The translations under genes were made by a program, and so were the position numbers. A DNA stretch of 38,878 bases from Clostridia bacterium (GTDB taxonomy: Bacteria; Bacillota; DTU025). Shown here piece by piece: positions 8,487 to 34,730 of the stretch. Positions within the stretch are counted from its first letter, which is position 1; each line of letters opens with the position of its first letter. The notes beneath the pieces are model-generated. The model saw only the letters and a list, made by a program, of their open reading frames with translations. It did not search any database and was not told where the DNA came from. The DNA lies in the NCBI GenBank assembly GCA_034926675.1, contig JAYFQW010000057.1:1-38878 (forward strand). Reading direction: 5' to 3'.

Positions 8487-9677
8487 GTGGGCTCATTTGT
8501 TGCTTTTGTTTTCGAAGGCGGGACGTCATCGGGGTGTATCGAGACGTGGGTGGCGAAGGTAAGGGAGGAGATGGCCCTGTCCCTTGCCGGGCGCCTCAGG
8601 GCAACCGGGTGTTTCGATGAGGTTATCATGGTGACTGATAGAAGCGCCCTTGCGGAGCGGGCTCTTGCGCAAACTGGTGCAGTGCCTGACGTCAGGCACG
8701 ACGATGGCGCGTTCCATTTCGGGGCTAGGCTTTCCCAGGCACTGCATCGCGCCGCGGAGCACACGCGGGCATGCTGCGGGAACGACGACCTGAGTGGGTT
8801 CGTTTACATGAGTGGCGGATCCGGGTTCTTCATGGGCGCTGAAGAGATACGTTCGTTCGCACGGGCGGTCCTCGCGAATCCCCATGCGGTGGTGGCGAAC
8901 AACACCTATTCGGCCGACATGTTCGGGGCAGCGGACGTCAACCTCGTTCTGAAGGCGGATCTTCCGGCGTCCGACAACGCTGCGCCGATGGCAGTGTGGG
9001 CGCAAGGAGCTGAGCTCATCGCCTTGCGCCAGACTATTGGGACCACATTTGACGTGGACACCCCGAGCGACCTTCTGGTAATGGAGGCGGTTGCCGAGAG
9101 GCTCGGGGCTGACGCAAAAGGAACTGTGGATGAGATCCTGCGTTTCAACTCGGCCGGCATTGCGCGGGAACGCCTTGATCTCGCAAGGCGCGTGCTGGAG
9201 CGAGAACTCGCCGAGGCAGCCATATTCGGCAGGGTCTCCCCGTCCACAGTCGAGGAGCTCAACTCCCTTACCCGCGCGCGCCTTCGTATCTACTCAGAGG
9301 AGCGGGGCATGCGCTCGTTCGGCCGCGATAAGCCAGGCGGCGCCAGGAGCCTCATCGGAAGGTACATTGACTCGCGAGGGCCTGAGGGGTTCTTTGCGGA
9401 TCTGGCATGGTGCGCGGATGTGGCATTCATCGATACGCGGGTCCTGTTTTCGCACATGGGGGCGGCCCTCTCTCAGGAGGAGAGGTTTGCGGCCGATCTG
9501 TTTCTGCCGGAATTGGTCAGGGATTCACGGGCGGCGCGCTTGGTCACGGCCGCCACGGACGCCGAAATCCCCGTTGTGCTGGGAGGACACTCGCTGGTTT
9601 CAGGCGGCGTCAGGGCGCTCGCCTTGTGCCCCCCTGGGGGCGATGGTATAATGCCTTGTTGGCAGACGCGCAAGTGA
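8487..9677 (+). CDS. Unrecognised protein with nucleotidyltransferase-like N-terminus
   Basis: I do not recognise this 396-residue protein as a named family. The first 200 or so residues resemble a MobA/CofC-like sugar-nucleotide or NTP-transferase fold: an N-terminal hydrophobic strand ([10 protein letters not shown]), a central [10 protein letters not shown] segment, and D189-V-D-T-P-S-D-L, like the DxDTPxDL motif common in that superfamily. The remainder is probably helical and unassigned. No membrane segment or signal peptide is evident. The GTG at 8487 is chosen because GGGAGGGG (8473-8480) sits 6 bases upstream. A longer reading frame reaches an ATG at 8394, but it would run through the hpf terminator. 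The gene ends 1 base before the secA GTG, so expression with secA is likely. Confidence 0.6.
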
Positions 9678-9678
9678 G

Positions 9679-12261
9679 GTGGCCCTTTTGCTGAATATCT
9701 TCAAGAGGATCTTCGACTCTAACCCGAGAGAATTGAGAGATCTGCAGGCCAAAGCTGATGCGGTTTCTGCCCTCGCTTCCGAGGCTGAACGCGCTTCCGA
9801 TGGTGAACTGGCTGAGCGGACCGGGGATTACCGGAGCAGGATTGAGAGGGGAGAAACCCTCGATTCTCTGTTGCCAGAGGCATTTGCGACCGCTCGTGAG
9901 GCCGCGCGACGCACCATAGGCCTGTACCCGTACGACGTACAGGTGATGGGCGGAGTAGTCCTTCACGAGGGGAAGATCGCGGAGATGAAGACCGGCGAGG
10001 GGAAGACCCTCGTCGCGACTATGCCGGCATACCTTAACGCCCTCACTGGAAAGGGCGTTCACATCGTTACAGTCAATGACTACCTGGCGAGGCGTGACCT
10101 GGAGTGGATGGGCCCAGTGTATCGGGCTCTCGGCCTTGATGTGGGAGTGATCGTGCACGACCTGGAAGGACCTGGCCGTCGCGAAGCCTACAGGCGCGAC
10201 ATCACCTTCGGCACCAACAATGAGTATGGTTTCGACTATCTCAGGGACAACATGGTCACGTCTATCGAGCAGCAGGTGCAGAGGGGCCACAACTACGCCA
10301 TCGTCGATGAGGTGGACTCGATACTGATCGACGAGGCCAGGACCCCCCTGATCATCTCCGGGCAGGCCGAGGAGTCCACCGAGAAGTACTTCGTCTTCGC
10401 CAGGATCGCAGATAGCCTCAAGTCGGAAGAGGACTACACCGTGGACGAGAAAGCCAACTCGGCGGCGCTCACCGAGGCGGGAGTCTCCCGAGTTGAGAGA
10501 TGGCTTGGTGTGGAGAACCTGTACGATGAACAGAACATCGAGCTTACTCACCACATCAACGCCGCGCTGCGGGCCAGGGCATTGATGAGGCGGGACCGGG
10601 ACTACATCGTGAAGGACAACGAGGTAATCATCGTCGATGAGTTCACAGGCAGGCTCATGTTCGGTAGGCGATACAGCGATGGTCTTCACCAGGCGATAGA
10701 GGCCAAGGAGAACGTGAAGGTGCAGAGGGAGAACCAGACCATGGCCACCATCACGTTTCAGAACTACTTCCGCATGTACCACAAGATCGGCGGCATGACT
10801 GGCACTGCAGCAACTGAGGAAACGGAGTTCATCAAGATCTACAACCTCAGTGTTGTTCAGGTGCCCACGGCCAAACCCATGATCAGGGTGGACCTCCCAG
10901 ATGTCGTGTACAAGACCGAGTCAGCGAAGTTCCGTGCAGTGGTGGATGAGATATGCGAGAGGCACGCAAATGGCCAGCCCGTGCTTGTAGGCACTGTGTC
11001 GATTGAGAAATCCGAAAGAGTCTCGGATATGCTCTCGCGCAGAGGCGTAGATCATCAGGTGCTGAATGCGAAGCACCACGAGAGAGAGGCTGAGATCATC
11101 AAACTTGCCGGTCAACCAGGAGCGGTGACCATCGCTACCAACATGGCTGGGCGCGGAACCGACATTGTGCTCGGTGAGGGAGTAGCGAAAGGCGGTGGGC
11201 TCCATGTGATCGGCACTGAGAGGCATGAGAGCCGGAGAATCGACAACCAGCTCCGCGGCAGATCAGGCCGGCAGGGAGACCCAGGTTCCTCCAGGTTCTA
11301 CGTCTCGCTCGAGGATGATCTGATGCGTCTGTTTGGCGGGGACTTCATATCCAACCTGATGAACCGACTGGGTTGGAGTGAGGACGAGCCGATCGAGCAC
11401 CCTCAACTCACTCGGGCCATAGAGAATGCCCAGAGGAAGGTCGAGGGCAGGAACTTCGAAATCCGCCGCCAGGTGCTTGAGTACGATGACGTCATGAACA
11501 AGCAGCGGGAAGCCATATATTCGAGGCGTTCCGCGATCCTTGAAGGCACCGATCTGCGAGCGCAGGCCCTCGAACTGCTGGCTGCTACGGCCGAAGGCAT
11601 GGCGCGGGCACATGCAGATGAGAAACTCAAGCAGGGGGAGTGGGATCTTGCAGGGCTCTCGGTCGAGATCGCAGGCCTGCTCAGTACGGGCGGCAAACCC
11701 GAGCTCTCGCAGTTCCTGACTGGCTCCTGGGCGGATCTCCGCGATGGAGTGCTCTCCCTTCTCACCGAGGCCTACGAGCAGAAGGAGGCCGTCATAGGGC
11801 CGGAGCGCCTTCGAGAGCTGGAAAGGGCCATAATGCTCTACATGATCGACTCCAAGTGGGTGGATCATCTTCAGGGCATGGACGTCCTGCGAGAGGGCAT
11901 CGGCCTGAGAGCGTACGGGCAGATGGATCCTCTCGTGGAATACAAGAAAGAGTCGTTCCTAATGTTCAATGACCTACTTACGAGCATTGGTGAGGATTTC
12001 GTAAGGTATGTGCTTAGGATACAGGTCCGCCTGGAGCAGGAAGGCGGAGAGCACGCCGAAGGGGTTGGCCAGAGCGAGGGGCGTGTGCGCACTGATGCGG
12101 CCGCGCCGAAACACCCGCGGTGCTCTATGCACATCAACAGGGACGAGGGCAGGTCTTCAAAACAGCCTGTGAGGAAGGCAGATCAAAAGGTGGGCCGGAA
12201 CGATCCGTGCCCGTGCGGAAGTGGCAAGAAGTATAAGAAGTGCTGCGGAGCCGGGAAGTAG
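9679..12261 (+). CDS. secA: Preprotein translocase ATPase SecA
   Basis: Motor ATPase of the Sec pathway, pushing unfolded preproteins through SecYEG. At 860 residues it has full family length. Motifs in order: Walker [10 protein letters not shown]; Walker [17 protein letters not shown]; preprotein-binding and HelD regions; [22 protein letters not shown]; and a C-terminal zinc-binding tail [13 protein letters not shown], which binds SecB or ribosomes in other bacteria. Two starts are possible. The GTG at 9679 directly follows the upstream stop. A TTG at 9688 (giving [10 protein letters not shown]) has GTGAGGTGG spaced better and matches usual SecA N-termini. prfB follows after 46 bases. Confidence 0.97.
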
Positions 12262-12307
12262 CCGGGGCCAGCGGGGCATCTGCATAGCACTAGAGGGGGA
12301 TTAGCCG

Positions 12308-13430
12308 ATGAGAGCAGAGCTTGATCAGGCGTTGGCTGCGATGGAGGCCAGAATAGACGAAATGAGGGCCTATCTTTGACGTAGCGGGCAAGCGAGCCCG
12401 GCTAGGGGAATACGAGGCGAAAGCTGCGGAGCCAGGGATATGGGATGACCGTGATCGTGCGCAGGCGCTGATGCAGAAGATATCGACCCTGCAGGCGGGG
12501 ATCGGGAAGTTCCAATCAATTCTAGGCCATCTTGAGGACGCGCGCGCTCTCGCGGAGCTTGCCGATGAAGAGGACGACGCAGACGCGATCAGGGAGTGCT
12601 TCGATCGTCTTCGTGAGCTTGACCAAGCAGTCGGTGTGATTGAGCTTGAGAACCTGCTCTCCGGACCCTATGACTCTTCCAACGCGATCATGGCCATTCA
12701 TCCGGGGGCAGGCGGAACCGAGAGTCAGGATTGGGCGGAGATGCTGCTCAGGATGTACACGAGATGGGCGGAGCGGAGTAGGTATCGGGTGGAACTCGTG
12801 GACCTGCTCCCCGGCGAGGAGGCAGGGATCAAGAGCGCCACAATGATCGTGTCGGGCGAGAACGCCTTCGGTTACCTCAAGACGGAGAAAGGCGTGCATA
12901 GGCTCGTTCGGATCTCGCCTTTCGATGCCTCGGCAAGGAGGCACACTTCGTTCGCGTCGGTCGATGTAGTGCCTGAGATGGGAGAAGGCGAGATCGACAT
13001 CGACCCGATGGATCTGAAGATCGATACTTATCGATCAGGCGGCGCAGGTGGGCAGCACGTGAACAAGACCGACAGCGCAGTGAGGATCACCCACATCCCC
13101 ACCGGCATTATCGTGCAGTGTCAGAACGAGAGGTCGCAGCACAGCAACAAGGAGACGGCCATGAAGATCCTCAGGGCGAGACTCGGCGAGAAGCAGCGGC
13201 AGGATCAGGAGAAGGAACTGTCGGCCATCCGCGGTGAACAGCACGAGATCGCCTGGGGCAGTCAGATCAGGTCTTACGTATTCCAGCCCTACACAATGGT
13301 CAAGGATCACAGGACCGATGCTGAGACCGGGAACGTTGGCGCTGTGATGGATGGGGCCATCGATCAGTTTATAGAGGCCCAGCTCAGAGCCTCCGCTGCA
13401 GCGGCCTCTGCAAGCAGGAACCGAGAATGA
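12308..13430 (+). CDS. prfB: Peptide chain release factor 2 with programmed +1 frameshift
   Basis: RF2 recognises UGA and UAA stop codons and triggers peptide release. The gene is in two frames. A 23-codon first part starts at ATG 12308 (AGAGGGGG upstream) and ends at an in-frame TGA at 12377-12379. The second part resumes at 12378 in the +1 frame as DVAGKRARLGEYEAKAAEPG and runs to 13430, giving about 373 residues. RF2 hallmarks are present: the stop-recognition tripeptide in RISPFDASA and the catalytic GGQ in GGAGGQHVNKTDSAV. Starting at the internal ATG 12471 would remove the conserved N-terminal helices, so that start is rejected. Level of RF2 is presumably autoregulated through the frameshift. 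Confidence 0.97.
12364..12380 (+). promoter_or_regulatory. prfB programmed +1 frameshift site
   Basis: The bases TGAGGGCCTATCTTTGAC contain the conserved RF2 signal: a Shine-Dalgarno-like GAGGG, then TAT CTT TGA C. The ribosome slips +1 on CTT when RF2 is scarce, reading GAC instead of terminating at TGA. The upstream element is GAGGGCC rather than the commoner AGGGGG. Confidence 0.93.
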
Positions 13431-26394: not shown

Positions 26395-27272
26395 TTATCT
26401 TGTTCCCAACCAGGCATGCATCAGGATTTCTCGGGCTAGGGACTCGGTCAGACGCTTGGGGCTGAGCATAGCCGCACCTGAGGTGAGGCCTGCATCGAGC
26501 GCGCTATCAATGCACGACTCGAATGCGTGTCCGTCAATGCCTGCCGCTTCAAGCGAACGTGGAATTCGCCTTCGCCAGGTCGCGACCGCACTGATATGGG
26601 CAGCCATCCGAATACTTCCAGTGCTGCCTGCACAGCCACGGATACTACAAGCCCCGACGATACTGTGCATGTAGCTGCTTCCAATGCGTGACTCAATGCG
26701 TCTAGCCCGGAGTAGGCTGCTACTTTGGCTGGCATGGAATCTACAAGGTCAGCATCTAGTATTGCCAGGTCGGGAACGAGTTCACTCGACATCATCAGGC
26801 GCTTGGTTCGAGTGTCGGGGTCTATCAGCACTGCCACACACGTAGTCTCCGATCCGGCGCCGCTGGTAGTCGGCGCCGCTATCAGTCTTGCCTTGTCGCC
26901 CAGGCCAGGTATGGCGAAGGGAGTAAAGGCCTTTTCTAGGCCTATCCCGGGATGCTCATAGAACACCCACGAGGCCTTGGCGGTGTCGAGTACCGAACCT
27001 CCGCCAATGGCTACGATAGTGTCGGGCTTGAACACGGCCATCTCATCCAGTGGTCGCAGCGCATCGTGGATGCTGGGTTCGCCGCCGATGTCGGCCACAA
27101 GCTGCCAGGCGATACCCGCCTGCTCAAGGCCGGAAGTTACGGCCTTGAGCCGCTCGCGCCCCAGGGCGCGCGAATCGATGAACAGCGCCACTCGTTTCCC
27201 TGAAACCTCAGGCAGCGTGCTCAGACAACCTCTACCACACGCAAAGGGTGCGTTCACGAATCTTGCGTTCAT
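26395..27272 (-). pseudogene. Iron-containing alcohol dehydrogenase, internal deletion and frameshift
   Basis: Remnant of a type III (iron-dependent) alcohol dehydrogenase. The start at 27272 overlaps the grdE-like stop (TAATG). The N-terminal two thirds are normal: GGGSVLDTAKA, PTTSGAGSETT, and SGLDALSHALEA with two of the metal ligands. After a segment ending near 26585 the frame changes, and what continues in the other frame (IPRSLEAAGIDG through REILMHAW, ending at 26395) is the family's normal C-terminus. About 110 residues are missing, including the region that carries the remaining two metal-binding histidines. The product cannot be an active enzyme of the usual kind. It was probably the last gene of the operon. 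Confidence 0.85.
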
Positions 27273-28588
27273 TAGTATGCAGCTCCATATAGCCTGCCGT
27301 GGCCTGACTGGTTGCCAGAACAGTAGATGTGCGTGGTTGTGTCGAAGGTGATCGCATCCGTCGCCTCCGGGAACCAACCTCCCGACTCCTTGTTGAGCCT
27401 CAGCACATCTCCACCCACCACACGATCCACTGCAGGCAGTGATGTTGTCTTCTCAATGCTCCCGCCGCTCACGATGGCGATGGCCTCAGGCACACTGTCT
27501 ACAAGAAGGTCGCCTTCAGTGCCATCTTTGCCCCCGAATTCGAACGTGATGGCGGAGGCAGCGATGCCTGATGTTTCAGCATACTGAATGGTGAGCATTG
27601 CGTCTACCGCAGCGTTGCCTCCGCCTTCCCACGCCATCACCAGGCCATCAGCGCCGAGCATGTGGGCCAGCTTCACGCAGAAACTGGCTGAGCGTTCCTT
27701 GTGCCAGTGGGTTGGGTTATGGCTGCGGCTGAACACCACGCCCCTGAAATTCAGGTCTACGCCGTGGCGCCTGTAGAGGTCGAGCAGTATCGGGTGGTTC
27801 GCATGAAGATAGGTGGGAACCTTGAAGGCTGGCCAAACGTAGTTGCCGCTCACCACGGCTCCGTCTAGCATTTCGTTGGGATGCAGCCATGTGGGCGTCA
27901 GATTATCAATGGGGTGCGCATAGAGCAGCGTGTTTGCGTACACGCCCTGGTTTTGGCACTGCCATACGAGTACCACTTTGGGAAGGTCGTCGGCTGCACC
28001 GTCGATTGAGAAGTGCTCAACCTGATCCGGCTGGGCCCCTTCGGCAACCCTCGCCAGGTAGTCGGCTACTCGCATTGCCGACTGCCTTATGGCTGCGTCG
28101 TACTCAGCTGATGATTTGCCTTCGACCAAGCTGTAGCAGATCACCAGGTTGCTGGTGTGGGAGAAGGGGCTGTACTCGGATATTGGGCCAGTCATGTCCA
28201 CTATCGCGTCTCTAGGATATAGCAATCCGCTGCTTGTGCTGGCCGATTCCCATGGCAGCGGCGCACTCTCCATCACTGCGAATCCTCTGAGCAGATTGGT
28301 GGCGCCTGAGCCGGTGGTAGTGGGTGGGCCGATGATTCCCGGATATGCATTGCCCTCTGGCTTGTGCATTGGCTGTATCGTATCGAGCACATGGATTATC
28401 CGAGTGTTCTCTCCGGGGGCGACTAGGTCGAAACTGGCCTGAGCAACCCCGTCCAGAATGGGTTTTACCAGTTTCTCAATTTCGGCTCGGTTGATCCGCA
28501 GAAGGCCGTCGCGTAGGTCGGTCCTGTCGGCCCATACTGCGTGCTTCACATCGTAATTGTTTCTCGTGAGGTTCATTGTCGTGGCCAT
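27272..28588 (-). CDS. GrdE-like subunit (glycine/sarcosine/betaine reductase component B family) lacking the processing cysteine
   Basis: 438-residue homologue of GrdE/GrdG/GrdI, the proprotein partner of the GrdB-type selenoprotein in component B of glycine, sarcosine or betaine reductase. Family-like stretches: GIIGPPTTTGSGATNLLRG, DMTGPISEYSPFS, and DLYRRHGVDLNFRGVVFSR. In known GrdE proteins an Asn-Cys bond in a VSGNC-like motif is cleaved and the Cys becomes a pyruvoyl group. Here the motif reads VVSGN-Y250-V-W-P, with Tyr (codon 27839-27841) replacing the Cys. The protein may therefore be uncleaved and lack the cofactor. The ATG at 28588 has GGAGG 7 bases upstream. A TTG at 28594 is less likely. 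Confidence 0.82.
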   Translation of the reverse strand: MATTMNLTRNNYDVKHAVWADRTDLRDGLLRINRAEIEKLVKPILDGVAQASFDLVAPGENTRIIHVLDTIQPMHKPEGNAYPGIIGPPTTTGSGATNLLRGFAVMESAPLPWESASTSSGLLYPRDAIVDMTGPISEYSPFSHTSNLVICYSLVEGKSSAEYDAAIRQSAMRVADYLARVAEGAQPDQVEHFSIDGAADDLPKVVLVWQCQNQGVYANTLLYAHPIDNLTPTWLHPNEMLDGAVVSGNYVWPAFKVPTYLHANHPILLDLYRRHGVDLNFRGVVFSRSHNPTHWHKERSASFCVKLAHMLGADGLVMAWEGGGNAAVDAMLTIQYAETSGIAASAITFEFGGKDGTEGDLLVDSVPEAIAIVSGGSIEKTTSLPAVDRVVGGDVLRLNKESGGWFPEATDAITFDTTTHIYCSGNQSGHGRLYGAAY

Positions 28589-28590
28589 GC

Positions 28591-29928
28591 TCAAGCCTCC
28601 CTCCCTTCGTCCACCGTGAACACCGTTGGCACCGGCACATCCGTAGCCAACGCCTTGAGCGCGGTTTCCACAACACGTTTTCTGTAGGCCAGTTCACGCT
28701 GGGCTGGAAGATCTGGGTTGCCTGCAGGACTGGTGAAGTGCCCCCCGAACACGATCCTGTTTGCTTTGACGTTCTCGGCGATGGACGTGAATGCGGTGAT
28801 CTGGGCAGTGGGGATTCCGGCCTTGTCGAGTTCTTTGGCTATCGTTGCACCGCAACGTGTACAGGTGCCTCAGGTGGACGTGAGTATGGCTGCGCGAACC
28901 CCTGCCTGCTTGATCTGTGCCGCCATACGCTCTCCAATAGACACAGAGCTGCTAACGTTGGTGCCTATGCCGCAGGTTGTGAGGAACATGTTCCACACGC
29001 CGCCGACGGCGCCGTCGGCCTCAAGCTGCCTGAGGGCGTCCAGAGGAACCAGTCGGTTGGGATCGGCATTTACCATGGTGGTGTCATAACCGCCGTGAAT
29101 AGACTCGTAGTCGCCGGCTGTCATTGCGGATAGGTGCGCCAACGAGTACGAGCCGTAAGTGGTGGAGAACGCCTGCCTGAGCTTGTCGGGGTTGCCCTGG
29201 GGAACGAGCCCGCCTGTGGTGATGAGGGCTATAACTGAGTTCCCGAGGTCGGTCACTCGAGGAGCGGCGGGTACGGTTTCGAACGTGCGTATGGGTATCT
29301 CGGTGACGAACGGTGCGTTCGCGAGCCTGGCCATGAGCGTGTTCACAACACGCGTGGCCCCGATGAGCTGGTGCAACTCGTTTCTGCGATGCCCGGTAGG
29401 GATGTAGCCTTCGTCCAGGGCGGCGCCTATGGGCCTGCCCTGTGCAAGTTTGAGCGCTAGCGCTGCAAGGGGTGGGAGAGCTTTTGCCATTCCGGCTGCG
29501 GTTTCAGGCGTTGCGACAATGTAGTTGTGCTTCACGAACATTGGAACCGCCGGATTCTCAGGATGCATGGCGGTAACGCTGGGAATTCCAAGTTTCGAGC
29601 TTGCATACTCGGCGGTTCGTGCACACGCGACTCCATAGCGTCCGGCGTTGAAGGCTGGCCCCGAGATGAACACATGGGGCTTGAACCTAACAACCGCTTC
29701 AGTTAGGGCGGCAGCGAGTTGAGGAAAACTGGTTTCGGTGTTGGCGAAGTTGTCGCCGCACGCGATGGTGGCGACTACCTCCATCTCTTGACGCCACATG
29801 GCTTGCATGCCTATGGATGGGCCCTTGGCGCCCTCAAACAAGTTTACGCCAATGCCAGCCTTGTCCTCACCGCCAATACCGGCATAGAACTGGTTGATGT
29901 AACACAAAGCTCTTAGTTTGTCTGCCAA
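28591..29928 (-). CDS. GrdB-like selenoprotein (component B reductase family), in-frame UGA read as selenocysteine
   Basis: Selenocysteine-containing subunit of about 445 residues. The frame is interrupted by TGA at 28872-28870 (residue 353), yet continues for 92 further codons to TGA 28593-28591. Around the UGA it reads ILTST-U-GTCTRCGA, the U-x-x-C-x-x-C active site of GrdB/GrdF/GrdH. The continuation (KELDKAGIPTAQITAF, RIVFGGHF, ending TVDEGREA) is typical of the family C-terminus. A hairpin follows the UGA. I prefer the TTG at 29928 (GGAG upstream, product MADKLRALCYINQFYAGIGG). A GTG at 29967 would overlap the permease gene by 23 bases. The next gene starts 3 bases after its end. Confidence 0.92.
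28843..28872 (-). promoter_or_regulatory. Putative SECIS hairpin behind the UGA codon
   Basis: Starting 12 bases after the UGA, a perfect 6-bp stem CGTTGC / GCAACG closes on a GGT loop (28857-28843). An alternative pairing GCACC / GGTGC overlaps it. Position and size fit bacterial SECIS elements, which lie in the coding region just 3' of the UGA and recruit SelB. Clostridial SECIS sequences vary too much for a firm call. Confidence 0.6.
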
Positions 29929-29944
29929 TGATATCAGCTCCGTT

Positions 29945-31285
29945 CTAGGCTCTTGCTGAACCTGCACGGCCCACTGCGAAGATCACCAGGCCAATGAGGT
30001 GCCACCAACCCCCAAGCATGTAGGAGGCGGCCGGTAGCTTAACTAGGTTCACAACGACTACTACTATGGTAAGCAACGGCAGCGCGATTCCGCCAGGAAC
30101 CTGATATGCGCCTTTAGCTCCCAGATTGCGTATTCTGGCGGCAATCAGCGACACGGCCATGAGTACCACCAATATGGCTGAGCACAGCGAGCCCGTGCCG
30201 ATGATCTCCATGGTGAACTGTGGGAAACAGGCGACAATTGCGGCGGCGAGCGCGGAAACGGTAAGCGAGAAGCCGGGCGCCTGATTCTTGTTGACTGACC
30301 TGAACGCTGCGGGAAGCAGGCCGCCTTCGCTGACTCCCATCAGAGTGCGACTGCAGCTCATCACGAGCACCAGCATTGTGGTGACTATTGCGAACAGTGC
30401 TGAGATGGATATTGCAAGGCTTACCCACTTTGCTTCCGGTGCGAATACGGTGGCAGCAAATTGCATCGGTGCGTAGTAGGCGAAGGAATCAGGCGTGAAC
30501 TGCTTCCACGACACCACTCCAAACGTGGCGATTAGCATGATCAGGTAGAGCACGGTGGTCATTCCCAGGGAGATCATGATGGCCTTGGGAATGGTCTTGC
30601 GCGGTTCCTTGGCCTCTTCGGCCAGGCTGGCAATGGCTATCACAGAGCCGTAGGCCAGCATAGCCATGGGAATCGAAGTCATGATGCCGCTCTTTCCCAT
30701 GGCTCCCGAAGTCCAGAAGTTCGAGAAGCTCGCGGGATCGACGTGGGGGAAGGCCGCGAAGCTGTACGCCAGGCAACCTACCATGAGCAGGGCGGTGAGC
30801 ACCAGGTTGGTCTTTCCCATCAGGCTTATGCCCAGGTAGTTCACGGCCCAGCAGAACACTATCGCGATCACGCCTACGAGGATAACGGCATCCTTGGCGC
30901 CGGGGATTATGGAATCGAGATAGCCTGCAACGAAAATGGCGCCGAACGATGTGCCGAGAACTGTCACGTTAACCCATGACCACGATGCGAGCCAGCCTAG
31001 TAGCTGTTGAATGAGGGGGTTGTTGCTCAAGGTAGCAGCAGGATATGCGTACAAACCGCCGGCTTTAGGGAACCTGCTTGATAGCTCGGCTACGTTTAGC
31101 GCATATAGCATGATGATGGCCGCTGCGATGACCCATGCCACGAGCGCCGCGGGGCCTGCAAGACCGTAGGTCACGCCAGAGAGAGTGAATATGCAACTTC
31201 CAACCATGCCGCCGACGCCGATCATCACGCATTCCCATAGGCCCAGAACTCCAGTGCGCAGTTGCGACTCTTCAGATCCGCTCAT
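29945..31285 (-). CDS. APC-superfamily amino acid/amine permease
   Basis: Integral membrane transporter (446 residues, usual length) with about twelve hydrophobic segments. The APC consensus in the first helices is clear: GLWECVMIGVGGMVGSCIFTLSG and AELSSRFPKAGGLYAYP. Another signature segment is ASLAEEAKEPRKTIPKAI. It presumably imports the substrate or exchanges it for a product of the neighbouring enzymes. Its specificity (amino acid, amine or related zwitterion) cannot be read from sequence. The family differs from the BCCT or Opu transporters usual for betaine. The ATG at 31285 has GGAGG 8 bases upstream. Confidence 0.9.
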   Translation of the reverse strand: MSGSEESQLRTGVLGLWECVMIGVGGMVGSCIFTLSGVTYGLAGPAALVAWVIAAAIIMLYALNVAELSSRFPKAGGLYAYPAATLSNNPLIQQLLGWLASWSWVNVTVLGTSFGAIFVAGYLDSIIPGAKDAVILVGVIAIVFCWAVNYLGISLMGKTNLVLTALLMVGCLAYSFAAFPHVDPASFSNFWTSGAMGKSGIMTSIPMAMLAYGSVIAIASLAEEAKEPRKTIPKAIMISLGMTTVLYLIMLIATFGVVSWKQFTPDSFAYYAPMQFAATVFAPEAKWVSLAISISALFAIVTTMLVLVMSCSRTLMGVSEGGLLPAAFRSVNKNQAPGFSLTVSALAAAIVACFPQFTMEIIGTGSLCSAILVVLMAVSLIAARIRNLGAKGAYQVPGGIALPLLTIVVVVVNLVKLPAASYMLGGWWHLIGLVIFAVGRAGSARA

Positions 31286-31339
31286 GTTCGTTCCTCCACT
31301 TCAAATGCGGTGTGAATAGGTTCGCTGCAGTATGCCGGG

Positions 31340-32833
31340 TTACATGGGCGGAACAGTGCCGTCTTCGAGCTCAACGAATACCGTTTTCGGGTGCATGTAC
31401 TTTGTGATTCCCGCACCTCCAACGCCGCTGGCTTTCCAGCCCACTCCGGGCGACTCCATGATGCCCTTGCTGTAATAGGTGTTCACATACACCTGACCAG
31501 CTTTGATCTTCTCAGCCACGCGCTGCGCGCGCCTTGCGTCGCCGGTGAACACTCCGCCAGCCAGGCCGTAGTCGACGGCGTTGGCCAGCTCGACCGCGTC
31601 CTGCTCGGTGCTGAACTTGCTCACGCATAGCACGGGCCCGAAGATCTCTTGCCGGAATATGCTCATCTGGGGCGTTACATCGGCGAATATGGTGGGAGGT
31701 ATGAAGTTGCCTGCGGCCAGTGTTGGGTCGGTGTAGCGGAATCCTCCAGTAACTAGACTGGCGCCTTCGGCGATTCCCTGCTCAATGTGACGCCATACGC
31801 TCTCGCAATGCTCGCGAGAGATCATGGGGCCGAAGTTCACGCCGGGGGTGAAGCCGTCGCCCGGCACGACTTGCTTGCACAGGTTGACGAGCTCGTCGAT
31901 GAATCTGTCGTATATGGCCTCATGCAGTATCAGCCTTGTGCCAGCCACGCACACCTGGCCGGAGTTGAGAGTGAACCCGAAGAATGCCCATTTGGCGGCT
32001 TTACTGATGTCCACATCGTCGAATATGATGTTCGGGCTCTTTCCACCGAGCTCCAGCGCTACGTTTTTTACGGTGTCGGCGGCAGATGCAAATATCTGTT
32101 TGCCTGTTTCGGTGCCTCCAGTGAGCGACACCATGTCCACCTGTGGGTTTCTCACGAGGGCGTCTCCAACGCTTGAGCCAGGGCCCGGAACCACGTTCAC
32201 GACACCTTCAGGGAACCCTGCTTCGTGGAATACCGAAGCCAGTTCCAGCATGGATAGGGGCGCCCAGGTGGGCGGCTTGATCACTACCGTATTTCCGGCA
32301 GCCAGAATCATGCTGACTTTCTGGCAGCCCATCATGAGCGGGCCGTTCCAGGGCAGGATCTCGGCTACCACGCCACACGGCTGCCACATCACGTAGTTCA
32401 GATAGTGCCCACCGCCGTCTACTGGCACTACCTTGCCCTCAAGGCAGCGCGCCTTGCCTGCGGCGAATTGAAAAGCGTCAACGGCGGAGGGCAGTTCATA
32501 GAACTTCAGGCTTGGCCAGAGCTTTCCGCAGTTTAGACCCTCTATGGCTATGAACTCGTCTTCACGCTTCTTAAGGATCTCCCCTGCACGCAGCAAGAGG
32601 TGACTTCGTTCCGCCTGGGTCATGCGGCCCCACGGGCCATCATCGAATGCGCGCCGGGCTGCAGATATTGCGCGTTCCACGTCTGATTGGCTGCCCTGGT
32701 AGGCCGTGGCGATCACCTTGTTGGTTACCGGGCTGACCACGTCGAAGGTTTTGCCGGAATCTGAGGCTTCGAACTCACCGTCAACATACATCTTGTAGGG
32801 TTCGCGCTTGAGTACGCTTTGCGGATCAAGCAT
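31340..32833 (-). CDS. NAD(P)-dependent aldehyde dehydrogenase
   Basis: Aldehyde dehydrogenase superfamily enzyme (497 residues), oxidising an aldehyde to its acid with NAD(P)+. It most resembles the betaine-aldehyde/general aldehyde class. Visible motifs: EILPWNGPLM, IKPPTWAPLS, SLTGGTETGKQI, VALELGGKSPNI (catalytic Glu), and NSGQVCVAGTRL (catalytic Cys). All catalytic residues appear intact. The ATG at 32833 has GGGAGG 7 bases upstream. It is the first gene behind the sigma-54 promoter at 32880-32895, so it heads the operon. The aldehyde substrate is unknown. Confidence 0.92.
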   Translation of the reverse strand: MLDPQSVLKREPYKMYVDGEFEASDSGKTFDVVSPVTNKVIATAYQGSQSDVERAISAARRAFDDGPWGRMTQAERSHLLLRAGEILKKREDEFIAIEGLNCGKLWPSLKFYELPSAVDAFQFAAGKARCLEGKVVPVDGGGHYLNYVMWQPCGVVAEILPWNGPLMMGCQKVSMILAAGNTVVIKPPTWAPLSMLELASVFHEAGFPEGVVNVVPGPGSSVGDALVRNPQVDMVSLTGGTETGKQIFASAADTVKNVALELGGKSPNIIFDDVDISKAAKWAFFGFTLNSGQVCVAGTRLILHEAIYDRFIDELVNLCKQVVPGDGFTPGVNFGPMISREHCESVWRHIEQGIAEGASLVTGGFRYTDPTLAAGNFIPPTIFADVTPQMSIFRQEIFGPVLCVSKFSTEQDAVELANAVDYGLAGGVFTGDARRAQRVAEKIKAGQVYVNTYYSKGIMESPGVGWKASGVGGAGITKYMHPKTVFVELEDGTVPPM

Positions 32834-32879
32834 GCTCGAACCTCCCTTTCAGCCACAACTGAGGCTGATGGATTACCAT

Positions 32880-32895
32880 TGCAACATGCGTGCCA
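32880..32895 (-). promoter_or_regulatory. Sigma-54 (-24/-12) promoter of the aldehyde dehydrogenase operon
   Basis: Read on the - strand, TGGCACG-CATG-TTGCA is a full match to the -24/-12 consensus TGGCACG-N4-TTGCW. Transcription would start near 32868, giving a leader of about 35 bases before the ATG at 32833. A sigma-54 activator is encoded immediately upstream on the same strand. Confidence 0.9.
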
Positions 32896-32958: not shown

Positions 32959-32986
32959 GTCACATGTGTGACCTAGGCGTCACACA
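32959..32986 (-). promoter_or_regulatory. Palindromic activator-binding array (likely UAS)
   Basis: Two overlapping perfect inverted repeats occur here: TGTGTGAC-N6-GTCACACA (32965-32986) and GTCACA-TG-TGTGAC (32959-32972). The centre lies about 100 bases upstream of the predicted start site of the sigma-54 promoter, a usual distance for an enhancer. The array overlaps the last codons of the activator gene itself. The adjacent NtrC-type protein is the natural candidate to bind it. Confidence 0.7.
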
Positions 32987-34389
32987 TCATCCTCACAGGA
33001 GCAGCCGTCGTCGTGGTCGCGCATCTGCCGAAGCATTCGATGAAGGGTTTCTCTGGCAATCCCCAGATCATCCGCGGCACGGGTCACATTCCCATCGTGC
33101 CTGGCCAGGGCCAGTTTGATGTAGGAACACTGATATTGGGAAAGCGCCTGCTTCAGGGGCAAATCCTCTGGCGGGCAGCTGGCCGACTGCGTCAGAGACG
33201 GCGAGGAGCCCAGCGGGGGGCCTGATAGGTGCGCTGCCAGCTCTAGCTCGTCTATCACATCTGACTGCGCGAACACCATGGCTCGTTCCACGACGTTCTT
33301 GAGTTCGCGCACATTCCCCCGCCAAGGCTGCTGCCTGAGGAGTTCCAGTGCTGAAGGGGCGAGGTTCACGCGCTTGTTCATCTCCCTTGCATAGGAGTGG
33401 GCGAAATGGACGGCGAGCGCGGGAATGTCGTCGGGGCGCTCTCGTAGGGCTGGCATATGGATGGGGATCACGCACACTCTGTAGTACAAGTCCTCGCGGA
33501 ATCGGCCCATTGCTGCCTCCTGTTCCAGCTCGCGGTTGGTGGCGCAAATCAGGCGGAAGTCCACGCTGATTGTGGAAGTGCCTCCGACACGCTCGAAGCA
33601 TTTGTCTTCGAGGACGCGCAGGAACTTGGGCTGCACTGGTGCAGGGATATCCGCAACTTCGTCGAGGAACAACGTGCCGCCTGCGGCCAGTTCCACTTTT
33701 CCCTGTTTGCGAGCGACGGCTCCAGTAAAGGCGCCCTTTTCATGGCCGAACATTTCGCTTTCCCACAGGTCGCCGGGCACTGCTGCGCAGTTGACCTTGA
33801 CCAGCCTGTAGTTGTGCCGGCAGCTCAATGCGTGAATAGCCCTAGTCACCACGTCCTTGCCAGTGCCGCTCTCCCCGGTGATGAGAACGGGTGAATCACA
33901 GGCGGCCGCTGCGGCTGCCAGTCGACGAACCCTCATCATAGGCTCTGAGCTTCCCACAAGAGCCTGCCCGCCGGTGAGTTCCGCCAACTCTTCCCTGAGG
34001 CGCCTGTTTTCGCTTGTGACCTCAGAGAGACGGAGCGCCTTGTCGATCTCGAGGGCGAGATCGTCGGGGCGAATGGGCTTGGTAAGATACGTGAAGGCCC
34101 CCTTGCGCATGGCCTCCACTGCGCCGTCAATCGAGCCGTGCCCTGTCAACACGATCACCTGTCCGGCAAAGCCCTGTGTTCTTACGGATTCCATCAGTTC
34201 GATTCCACTCATCGTGGGCATGCGTACGTCTACCACCGCCACGTCAAAGTCCGATGAGGCCATGATGGCGTAGGCTTGAGCGCTTCCTGTTGCGGTCTGA
34301 ACCTGGTAGCCACAATCAGCAAGGCTGAGCTGCATAAAGTGTAGGAAGTCAGGCTCATCGTCTACAAGCATGATCTTGGCCCTGCTCAT
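32980..34389 (-). CDS. NtrC-type sigma-54-dependent response regulator
   Basis: Two-component activator of 469 residues. A receiver domain occupies about residues 1-125 (VDDEPDF, VAVVDVRMPTMSG with the phosphoacceptor Asp, LTKPIRPDD). The sigma-54-contacting AAA+ domain lies at about 140-380 (Walker A GESGTGKD, the GAFTGA loop in HEKGAFTGAVARKQ, Walker B GGTLFLDEVADIP, ERPDDIPALAVHF). A Fis-type helix-turn-helix is at about 425-460 (GNVTRAADDLGIARETLHRMLRQ). All motifs are intact. The ATG at 34389 has GGGAGG upstream and overlaps the broken kinase gene by 35 bases. It should activate the -24/-12 promoter at 32880-32895. Confidence 0.94.
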   Translation of the reverse strand: MSRAKIMLVDDEPDFLHFMQLSLADCGYQVQTATGSAQAYAIMASSDFDVAVVDVRMPTMSGIELMESVRTQGFAGQVIVLTGHGSIDGAVEAMRKGAFTYLTKPIRPDDLALEIDKALRLSEVTSENRRLREELAELTGGQALVGSSEPMMRVRRLAAAAAACDSPVLITGESGTGKDVVTRAIHALSCRHNYRLVKVNCAAVPGDLWESEMFGHEKGAFTGAVARKQGKVELAAGGTLFLDEVADIPAPVQPKFLRVLEDKCFERVGGTSTISVDFRLICATNRELEQEAAMGRFREDLYYRVCVIPIHMPALRERPDDIPALAVHFAHSYAREMNKRVNLAPSALELLRQQPWRGNVRELKNVVERAMVFAQSDVIDELELAAHLSGPPLGSSPSLTQSASCPPEDLPLKQALSQYQCSYIKLALARHDGNVTRAADDLGIARETLHRMLRQMRDHDDGCSCEDDV

Positions 34390-34730
34390 CCGGAATTTGC
34401 CTCCCGTCGTCTGCCCCTGGCTGTGCTATGGAACTGCCCGGAGGCAGCTCAATAGCGCCCTTCGAACCCTGCCCCGGTCGACTAGGCATACGAATGGACC
34501 CGCGGCGCCGTCCGATCTCGCGGCAGCATATTGCCAGGCCCAGCCCTGTGCCCCAGCCAGGCGCTTTTGCGGTGAAGAACGGTGCGCTGAATGCAGCTGC
34601 CCATTGGTAAATCATGGCCCAAGAGCCCACGCGCGCACTCATTGGCATGCACAATGACGCCGTCGGGTTCAGTCAGGATCAAGCCTTCTGTATCGATAGA
34701 GTCGATGATCTGCAGCGCCTGGCGTCGCAT
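34355..34730 (-). pseudogene. Sensor histidine kinase remnant (PAS start joined to the C-terminal G2-box end)
   Basis: Two fragments in different frames. The N-terminal piece (start ATG 34730, GGAGG 8 bases upstream) is the beginning of a PAS domain: IIDSIDTEGLILTEPDGVIV, HANECARGLLGHDL. Near 34590-34607 the frame shifts, and the rest (APFFTAKAPGWGTGLGLAIC, then IELPPG, ending at 34355) is the ATP-binding end of a histidine kinase. The phosphoacceptor-His domain and the N-box are absent. A functional kinase would need some 250 more residues. It was presumably the cognate partner of the regulator that follows. Confidence 0.82.

Follow-up and report, generated by a model that had tools for sequence, protein, structure and literature searches.

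Sarcosine, betaine and fluoroacetate are handled by separate components B of the glycine reductase type, which use a shared GrdA and GrdC (PMC10838667). Loss of the pyruvoyl-forming cysteine has been reported for two of the subunits concerned, GrdI and FarE (PMC10838667). A preprint describes the conversion of riboflavin to lumichrome without oxygen by C. scindens (PMC12934955, bioRxiv, February 2026). According to its neighbourhood results, the riboflavin-induced genes finA-K encode RibF, a class I aldolase, an alcohol dehydrogenase, an aldehyde dehydrogenase (ALDH), and two homologues of glycine/betaine/sarcosine reductases. In Faecalicatena fissicatena, whose product is hydroxyethylflavin, a comparable region lacks both reductase homologues and is bordered by an additional aldehyde-alcohol dehydrogenase (PMC12934955). 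The neighbourhood results and early discussion of the preprint propose no reaction sequence for these homologues. The 38,878-nucleotide stretch analysed here (the window; contig JAYFQW010000057.1 of the Clostridia bacterium assembly GCA_034926675.1) carries an operon on its - strand, in the order sigma-54 box, ALDH, APC permease, GrdB-type selenoprotein, GrdE-type subunit, and the remnant of an iron-containing alcohol dehydrogenase (Fe-ADH). There is an even chance that its core of ALDH, GrdB and GrdE forms a module that clips a two-carbon tail from a compound X once the ALDH has acted, with the N10 of a flavin as the most likely X.

GrdB: The GrdB-type selenoprotein (28591-29928, - strand; PF07355, 410.6 bits) starts with TTG behind the ribosome-binding site AACGGAG and ends with the TGA at 28591-28593. 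An in-frame UGA within the gene (28870-28872, - strand) is read as selenocysteine (Sec) in the sequence STUGTCTRCG, which comprises a UxxCxxC motif. This motif is retained throughout the clade of GrdB and GrdE (GrdBE) to which the window pair belongs. A SECIS element lies directly behind the Sec codon (28832-28869, - strand) and matches Rfam RF01990 (SECIS_4) with 54.2 bits against a gathering threshold of 38. Rfam matches to SECIS elements are also found in the related loci L009, L010, L011, L048, and L051. The organism presumably decodes Sec, given its three Sec loci including that of GrdA.

GrdE: The GrdE-type subunit (27272-28588, - strand; PF09338, 406.9 bits) begins 2 nt after the GrdB stop. 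The Pfam gathering threshold for PF07355 and PF09338 is about 22 bits, and both subunits lie above it. The window GrdE is about 33% identical to the glycine GrdE of the same genome and lacks the pyruvoyl-forming cysteine; in the alignment it has SGNYVWPAF where the canonical protein has SGNCVSACD. The cysteine position is occupied by tyrosine in nearly all members of the clade, and by leucine in the protein of L012. Nineteen positions are aromatic in the clade GrdE but not in glycine GrdE, compared to 5 for the reverse; tryptophans number 6.6 per protein in the clade and 0.6 in glycine GrdE, and aromatics are the only residue class so enriched. The old pyruvoyl site is among the gained positions (C to Y, S to W, D to F). 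To judge by its residues, such a subunit would fit a flat aromatic substrate. No solved structure matched GrdB or GrdE by sequence, and a Foldseek search with their AlphaFold models (mean pLDDT 84 and 83) gave no meaningful match, the best TM being about 0.2.

When compared to the curated NCBIfam models, the window proteins stay far below the cut-offs of the known reductases. GrdB scores 395.9 on the glycine GrdB model (cut-off 602.2), 389.8 on the betaine model GrdH (cut-off 775), and 433.9 on the sarcosine model GrdF (cut-off 800). The scores on GrdG and on the fluoroacetate model FarE are 251.6 (cut-off 780) and 127.6 (cut-off 675), and the window GrdB keeps its CxxC. In the GrdB tree as well as in the GrdE tree, the window protein falls in a clade of 11 members (support 100/100 each), with the glycine proteins outside it. 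For GrdE, the group closest to this clade (99/95) is the type found on contig C76 of the same genome. The first-pass annotation had held that the operon is not that of glycine, sarcosine, or betaine reductase, and scores and trees agree with this. Between the window and G114, a sister genome of the same family, ALDH, GrdB and GrdE diverge by 0.53-0.56 at third codon positions and by 0.14-0.25 at first and second positions, a pattern indicative of purifying selection. A canonical grd operon or a decayed duplicate of one is thus ruled out by trees, motif, and selection, even though a complete grd locus exists elsewhere in the genome.

The window GrdBE resembles component B of glycine reductase in its Pfam families, in the Sec of UxxCxxC, and in the SECIS element, and presumably shares the selenolate attack and the transfer to GrdA. 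It differs in lacking the pyruvoyl cysteine, in its aromatic-rich GrdE, and in the absence of grdA, grdC, grdD and trx from the operon. FarBE of Cloacibacillus is likewise an accessory component B that comes with a dedicated transporter, lacks the pyruvoyl cysteine, and feeds a shared GrdA and GrdC (PMC10838667). In contrast, FarB lacks the CxxC, and the far genes include a major facilitator superfamily antiporter and a radical SAM protein, but no ALDH. GrdHI and GrdFG are also extra components B for N-substituted substrates, and GrdI is reported to be unprocessed; the window proteins, however, reach about half of the respective curated cut-offs or less, and no BCCT or Opu transporter is present.

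Other grd loci: Component B is encoded at three places in the genome, namely in the window, on contig C3, and on contig C76. Contig C3 has a canonical grd set with a fusion of thioredoxin reductase and thioredoxin, GrdE with SGNC, GrdA with Sec, GrdB, and a GrdC-GrdD fusion of 921 aa that exceeds both curated cut-offs. The two unusual fusions lie at L007:4948-7713 and 11362-12603, where GrdC and GrdD form one protein and thioredoxin reductase is joined to a thioredoxin domain. Because this complete canonical locus is present, the window GrdBE is an accessory, substrate-specific component B and not a free-standing system. By analogy with the sarcosine, betaine and fluoroacetate systems, it could draw on the GrdA, GrdCD and thioredoxin of C3. 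The first-pass annotation, which set the operon apart from those that carry grdA, grdC, grdD or trxA/B, is incomplete in this respect. Contig C76 contains a GrdBE pair with SGNY, an ALDH, a WrbA-type flavoprotein, and an XRE-cupin regulator, together with a complete mannose-family phosphotransferase system (PTS) with EI and HPr, a Zn dehydrogenase, and a class II aldolase (L008/L054). This locus looks like the same tail-clipping logic applied to a PTS-imported N-polyol compound. The C-terminus of its ALDH is apparently frame-shifted near L008:7860-7900.

Neighbourhoods: The window neighbourhood recurs in other anaerobes, and three kinds are found in the clade. The long kind (L009, L011, L012, L049) comprises a RibF-like kinase/flavin adenine dinucleotide synthetase, a DhnA/DeoC-type aldolase, a Tdh-like Zn dehydrogenase, an APC permease, and an ALDH, with an additional Fe-ADH in L011, L012, and L049. 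The PTS kind (L051) has a mannose-family PTS, a Zn dehydrogenase, and an aldolase, with a protein of the tungsten aldehyde:ferredoxin oxidoreductase (AOR) type beside GrdB; no ALDH was seen in the L051 stretch. The AOR-type protein and the window-type GrdBE adjoin at L051:11723-14037 and 8779-11426. The compact kind (the window, L048, L010, L016, L050) has an ALDH and an APC permease, a stub in L048, and neither kinase nor aldolase. Genomes with a long or PTS cluster are the only ones to contain an aldolase orthologue (at least 52% identity); the five with compact clusters have none. The permeases of compact and long clusters form two separate groups (100/100). For the compact GrdBE as one clade, the approximately unbiased (AU) test gave p = 0.336, a value that does not support an interleaving of the compact and long architectures. 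No GrdB or GrdE position separates compact from long clusters in a test of little power.

ALDH: The window ALDH (31340-32833, - strand; PF00171, 536.6 bits) has the catalytic Cys and Glu motifs and is 56-75% identical to the ALDHs adjoining related GrdBE. Its nearest named family is betaine-aldehyde dehydrogenase, with 472.8 bits and a cut-off of 668.6. Wherever the flanks of a clade locus are complete, an aldehyde-oxidising enzyme stands beside GrdBE, and the AOR-type protein of L051 is a non-homologous replacement of the aldehyde step. Since this replacement sits beside the same GrdBE, the ALDH more likely prepares a carboxymethyl substrate than balances redox. The earlier proposal that the aldehyde and alcohol enzymes balance redox is less likely, as the Fe-ADH is dead here and the aldehyde step is kept even by an unrelated enzyme.

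The long clusters match the composition of finA-K as given in the preprint (RibF-like kinase, aldolase, dehydrogenase, ALDH, and GrdBE). The window ALDH and GrdBE pair belongs to the same clade as these RibF/aldolase/dehydrogenase clusters, and it resembles the C. scindens region in that an ALDH adjoins two GrdB/E-type genes. It differs from that region in having no RibF-like kinase, aldolase, or Zn dehydrogenase alongside, a different APC permease, and control by sigma-54 and a response regulator. The reading as removal of a ribityl tail was derived from the gene content of the long clusters before the comparison with PMC12934955.

In the long clusters, the RibF-like kinase would phosphorylate C5' of riboflavin to give flavin mononucleotide (FMN), and the Zn dehydrogenase would oxidise C4' to 4'-keto-FMN, which has a ketose-1-phosphate-like group. 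The aldolase could then carry out a retro-aldol cleavage between C2' and C3', yielding dihydroxyacetone phosphate and X-CH2-CHO, here 10-formylmethylflavin. ALDH or AOR would oxidise this aldehyde to X-CH2-COO-, an N-substituted glycine (10-carboxymethylflavin). The selenolate of GrdB would attack the CH2 and expel X-H, which is lumichrome, while the carboxymethyl group passes to the GrdA encoded elsewhere in the genome. The fused GrdCD would make acetyl phosphate, with electrons from thioredoxin. With an X other than a primary amine, no pyruvoyl Schiff base would be formed; none is required for a tertiary nitrogen in a ring, and the loss of the pyruvoyl cysteine is in line with this. Without GrdBE the aldehyde would be reduced to hydroxyethylflavin, so the scheme predicts that F. 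fissicatena, in whose described region the reductase homologues are missing, ends at that product. The window has no upper steps, and neither FinB (RibF-like) nor FinC (class I aldolase) orthologues were found in its genome, where the best RibF and aldolase matches are 30% and 33-34% identical. Its APC permease would therefore import a compound X-CH2-CHO whose tail has been shortened beforehand, or a precursor close to it; X would be a flavin or another amine. It is a tentative suggestion, held at somewhat less than even confidence, that the clade GrdBE acts as a selenium-dependent reductase of carboxymethylflavin, breaking the N10-C bond in the last step of the anaerobic route from riboflavin to lumichrome, and that compact operons take up flavins partly degraded by other organisms (the formylmethyl, carboxymethyl or hydroxyethyl forms) to gain acetyl phosphate.

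Promoter and regulation: A pattern scan finds a perfect -24/-12 box, TGGCACG-CATG-TTGC (TGGCACGCATGTTGC, 32881-32895, - strand), 48 nt ahead of the ALDH start. In G114 the box TGGCACGGTTATTGC is likewise kept upstream of the orthologous ALDH, at the orthologous locus L048. The pattern has only five matches across the window and the compared loci. The sigma-54 promoter proposed from the first reading of the sequence is thus confirmed. A sigma-54-dependent response regulator of the NtrC/AtoC type (32980-34389, - strand; PF00072, PF00158, PF02954) is the likely activator and is 59% identical to its counterpart at the same position in G114. Upstream of it are two fragments in different frames (34442-34715, - strand) of the cognate PAS sensor histidine kinase. 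By tblastn, residues 11-50 and 548-594 are left, compared to an intact kinase of 611 aa in L048 of G114.

Permease and Fe-ADH: The APC-superfamily permease is of the compact-cluster type (29945-31285, - strand; PF13520) and groups with those of L010, L016, and L050 (100/100), apart from the permeases of the RibF/aldolase clusters. The Fe-ADH start overlaps the GrdE stop (TAATG). The gene (26395-27272, - strand; tblastn against four intact relatives) is degenerate, with about 95 internal residues deleted (residues 234-328 of the L011 protein) and a frame change, and does not encode an intact two-domain protein. Of the five genes first annotated, ALDH, APC permease, GrdB and GrdE are confirmed, and the Fe-ADH is broken. 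G114 has a different gene set after GrdE, with no Fe-ADH seen in its locus, and its permease is reduced to the first 95 residues (L048:7280-7564); in the window it is the kinase that is lost, and the permease is kept. Each genome has thus lost a different part of this operon. What both share as a common core is the regulator, the promoter, ALDH, GrdB and GrdE.

Several observations weigh against a flavin substrate, or against the use of one by this organism. With no FinC orthologue and a single RibF, the window genome is probably no riboflavin degrader itself. Identity with the C. scindens fin genes rests on gene composition as given in the preprint, not on FinHI sequences, and Rfam scans found no FMN riboswitch nearby. 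The broken kinase and Fe-ADH make expression of the operon uncertain. X may differ in the compact clusters, which have their own permease and possibly form their own clade at the AU value given above, and an aromatic pocket could also serve to hold a quaternary amine through cation-pi contacts. To our knowledge, no biochemistry ties any GrdBE to a flavin. The same clipping could act on ordinary amines. An amino alcohol or amino aldehyde of the choline or betaine-aldehyde type, once imported, would be oxidised by the ALDH to an N-substituted glycine, from which GrdBE would then yield the free amine and acetyl phosphate. The closest named family of the ALDH, the usual transport of amino acids and amines by APC permeases, the separate permease of compact clusters, a Trp/Tyr-rich site able to cage a quaternary amine, and the missing pyruvoyl cysteine of the betaine reductase subunit GrdI (PMC10838667) are consistent with this. 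The scores of 390 out of 775 on the betaine model for GrdB and of 472.8 out of 668.6 for the ALDH argue otherwise, as does the lack of a GrdB or GrdE residue, in the low-power test, that splits compact from RibF/aldolase clusters. The alcohol dehydrogenase required for choline is broken, and a route through a GbsB-like Fe-ADH and the ALDH is weakened by this and by the RibF/aldolase relatives. An ordinary amine as X is accordingly rather unlikely.

Tail clipping after the ALDH, with flavin N10 as the favoured X, can also be set against direct cleavage of an imported amino acid or amine by GrdBE, the model first proposed, in which ALDH and ADH serve redox balance only. Gene co-location and the APC permease suit such a model, but the window has only a remnant of the Fe-ADH and no Fe-ADH was seen in the G114 locus, the aldehyde-oxidising enzyme is kept throughout and is non-homologous in L051, and the loss of the pyruvoyl cysteine makes a free amino acid, with its primary amine, a poor candidate. 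Direct cleavage is therefore very unlikely. A decaying locus, with kinase and Fe-ADH broken and the operon out of use, is held to be equally improbable. The remnants in the window and the permease cut to 95 residues in G114 would agree with decay, whereas the sigma-54 box, regulator, ALDH, GrdB and GrdE are intact in both genomes and the genes show purifying selection.

The 2026 account of lumichrome formation from riboflavin without oxygen describes an induced neighbourhood, and the clade would tie the reductase homologues listed there to the reductive removal of a carboxymethyl tail. If this holds, it explains why organisms without such homologues stop at hydroxyethylflavin. It would also add a new substrate class for glycine-reductase selenoenzymes, with acetyl phosphate obtained from a vitamin side chain. 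Lumichrome and formylmethylflavin are bound by the immune receptor MR1, and the finding bears on these ligands.

Further GrdBE loci: An Acidobacteria metagenome-assembled genome has two GrdBE-like pairs on one contig (L015:1-13279), with an apparent DhnA-type aldolase (9130-9945) and a possible FGGY-type kinase (12197-13279), perhaps part of a wider family of tail-clipping pathways. On contig C76, a type I CRISPR-Cas-like set (Cas5/Cas7/Cas8-like), identified by eye only, lies near the second GrdBE (L055:1-5804). In genome G188, a group II intron (RF02005, 77 bits; L053:1600-1830) lies close to a further GrdBE pair, which is accompanied by an ABC uptake system.

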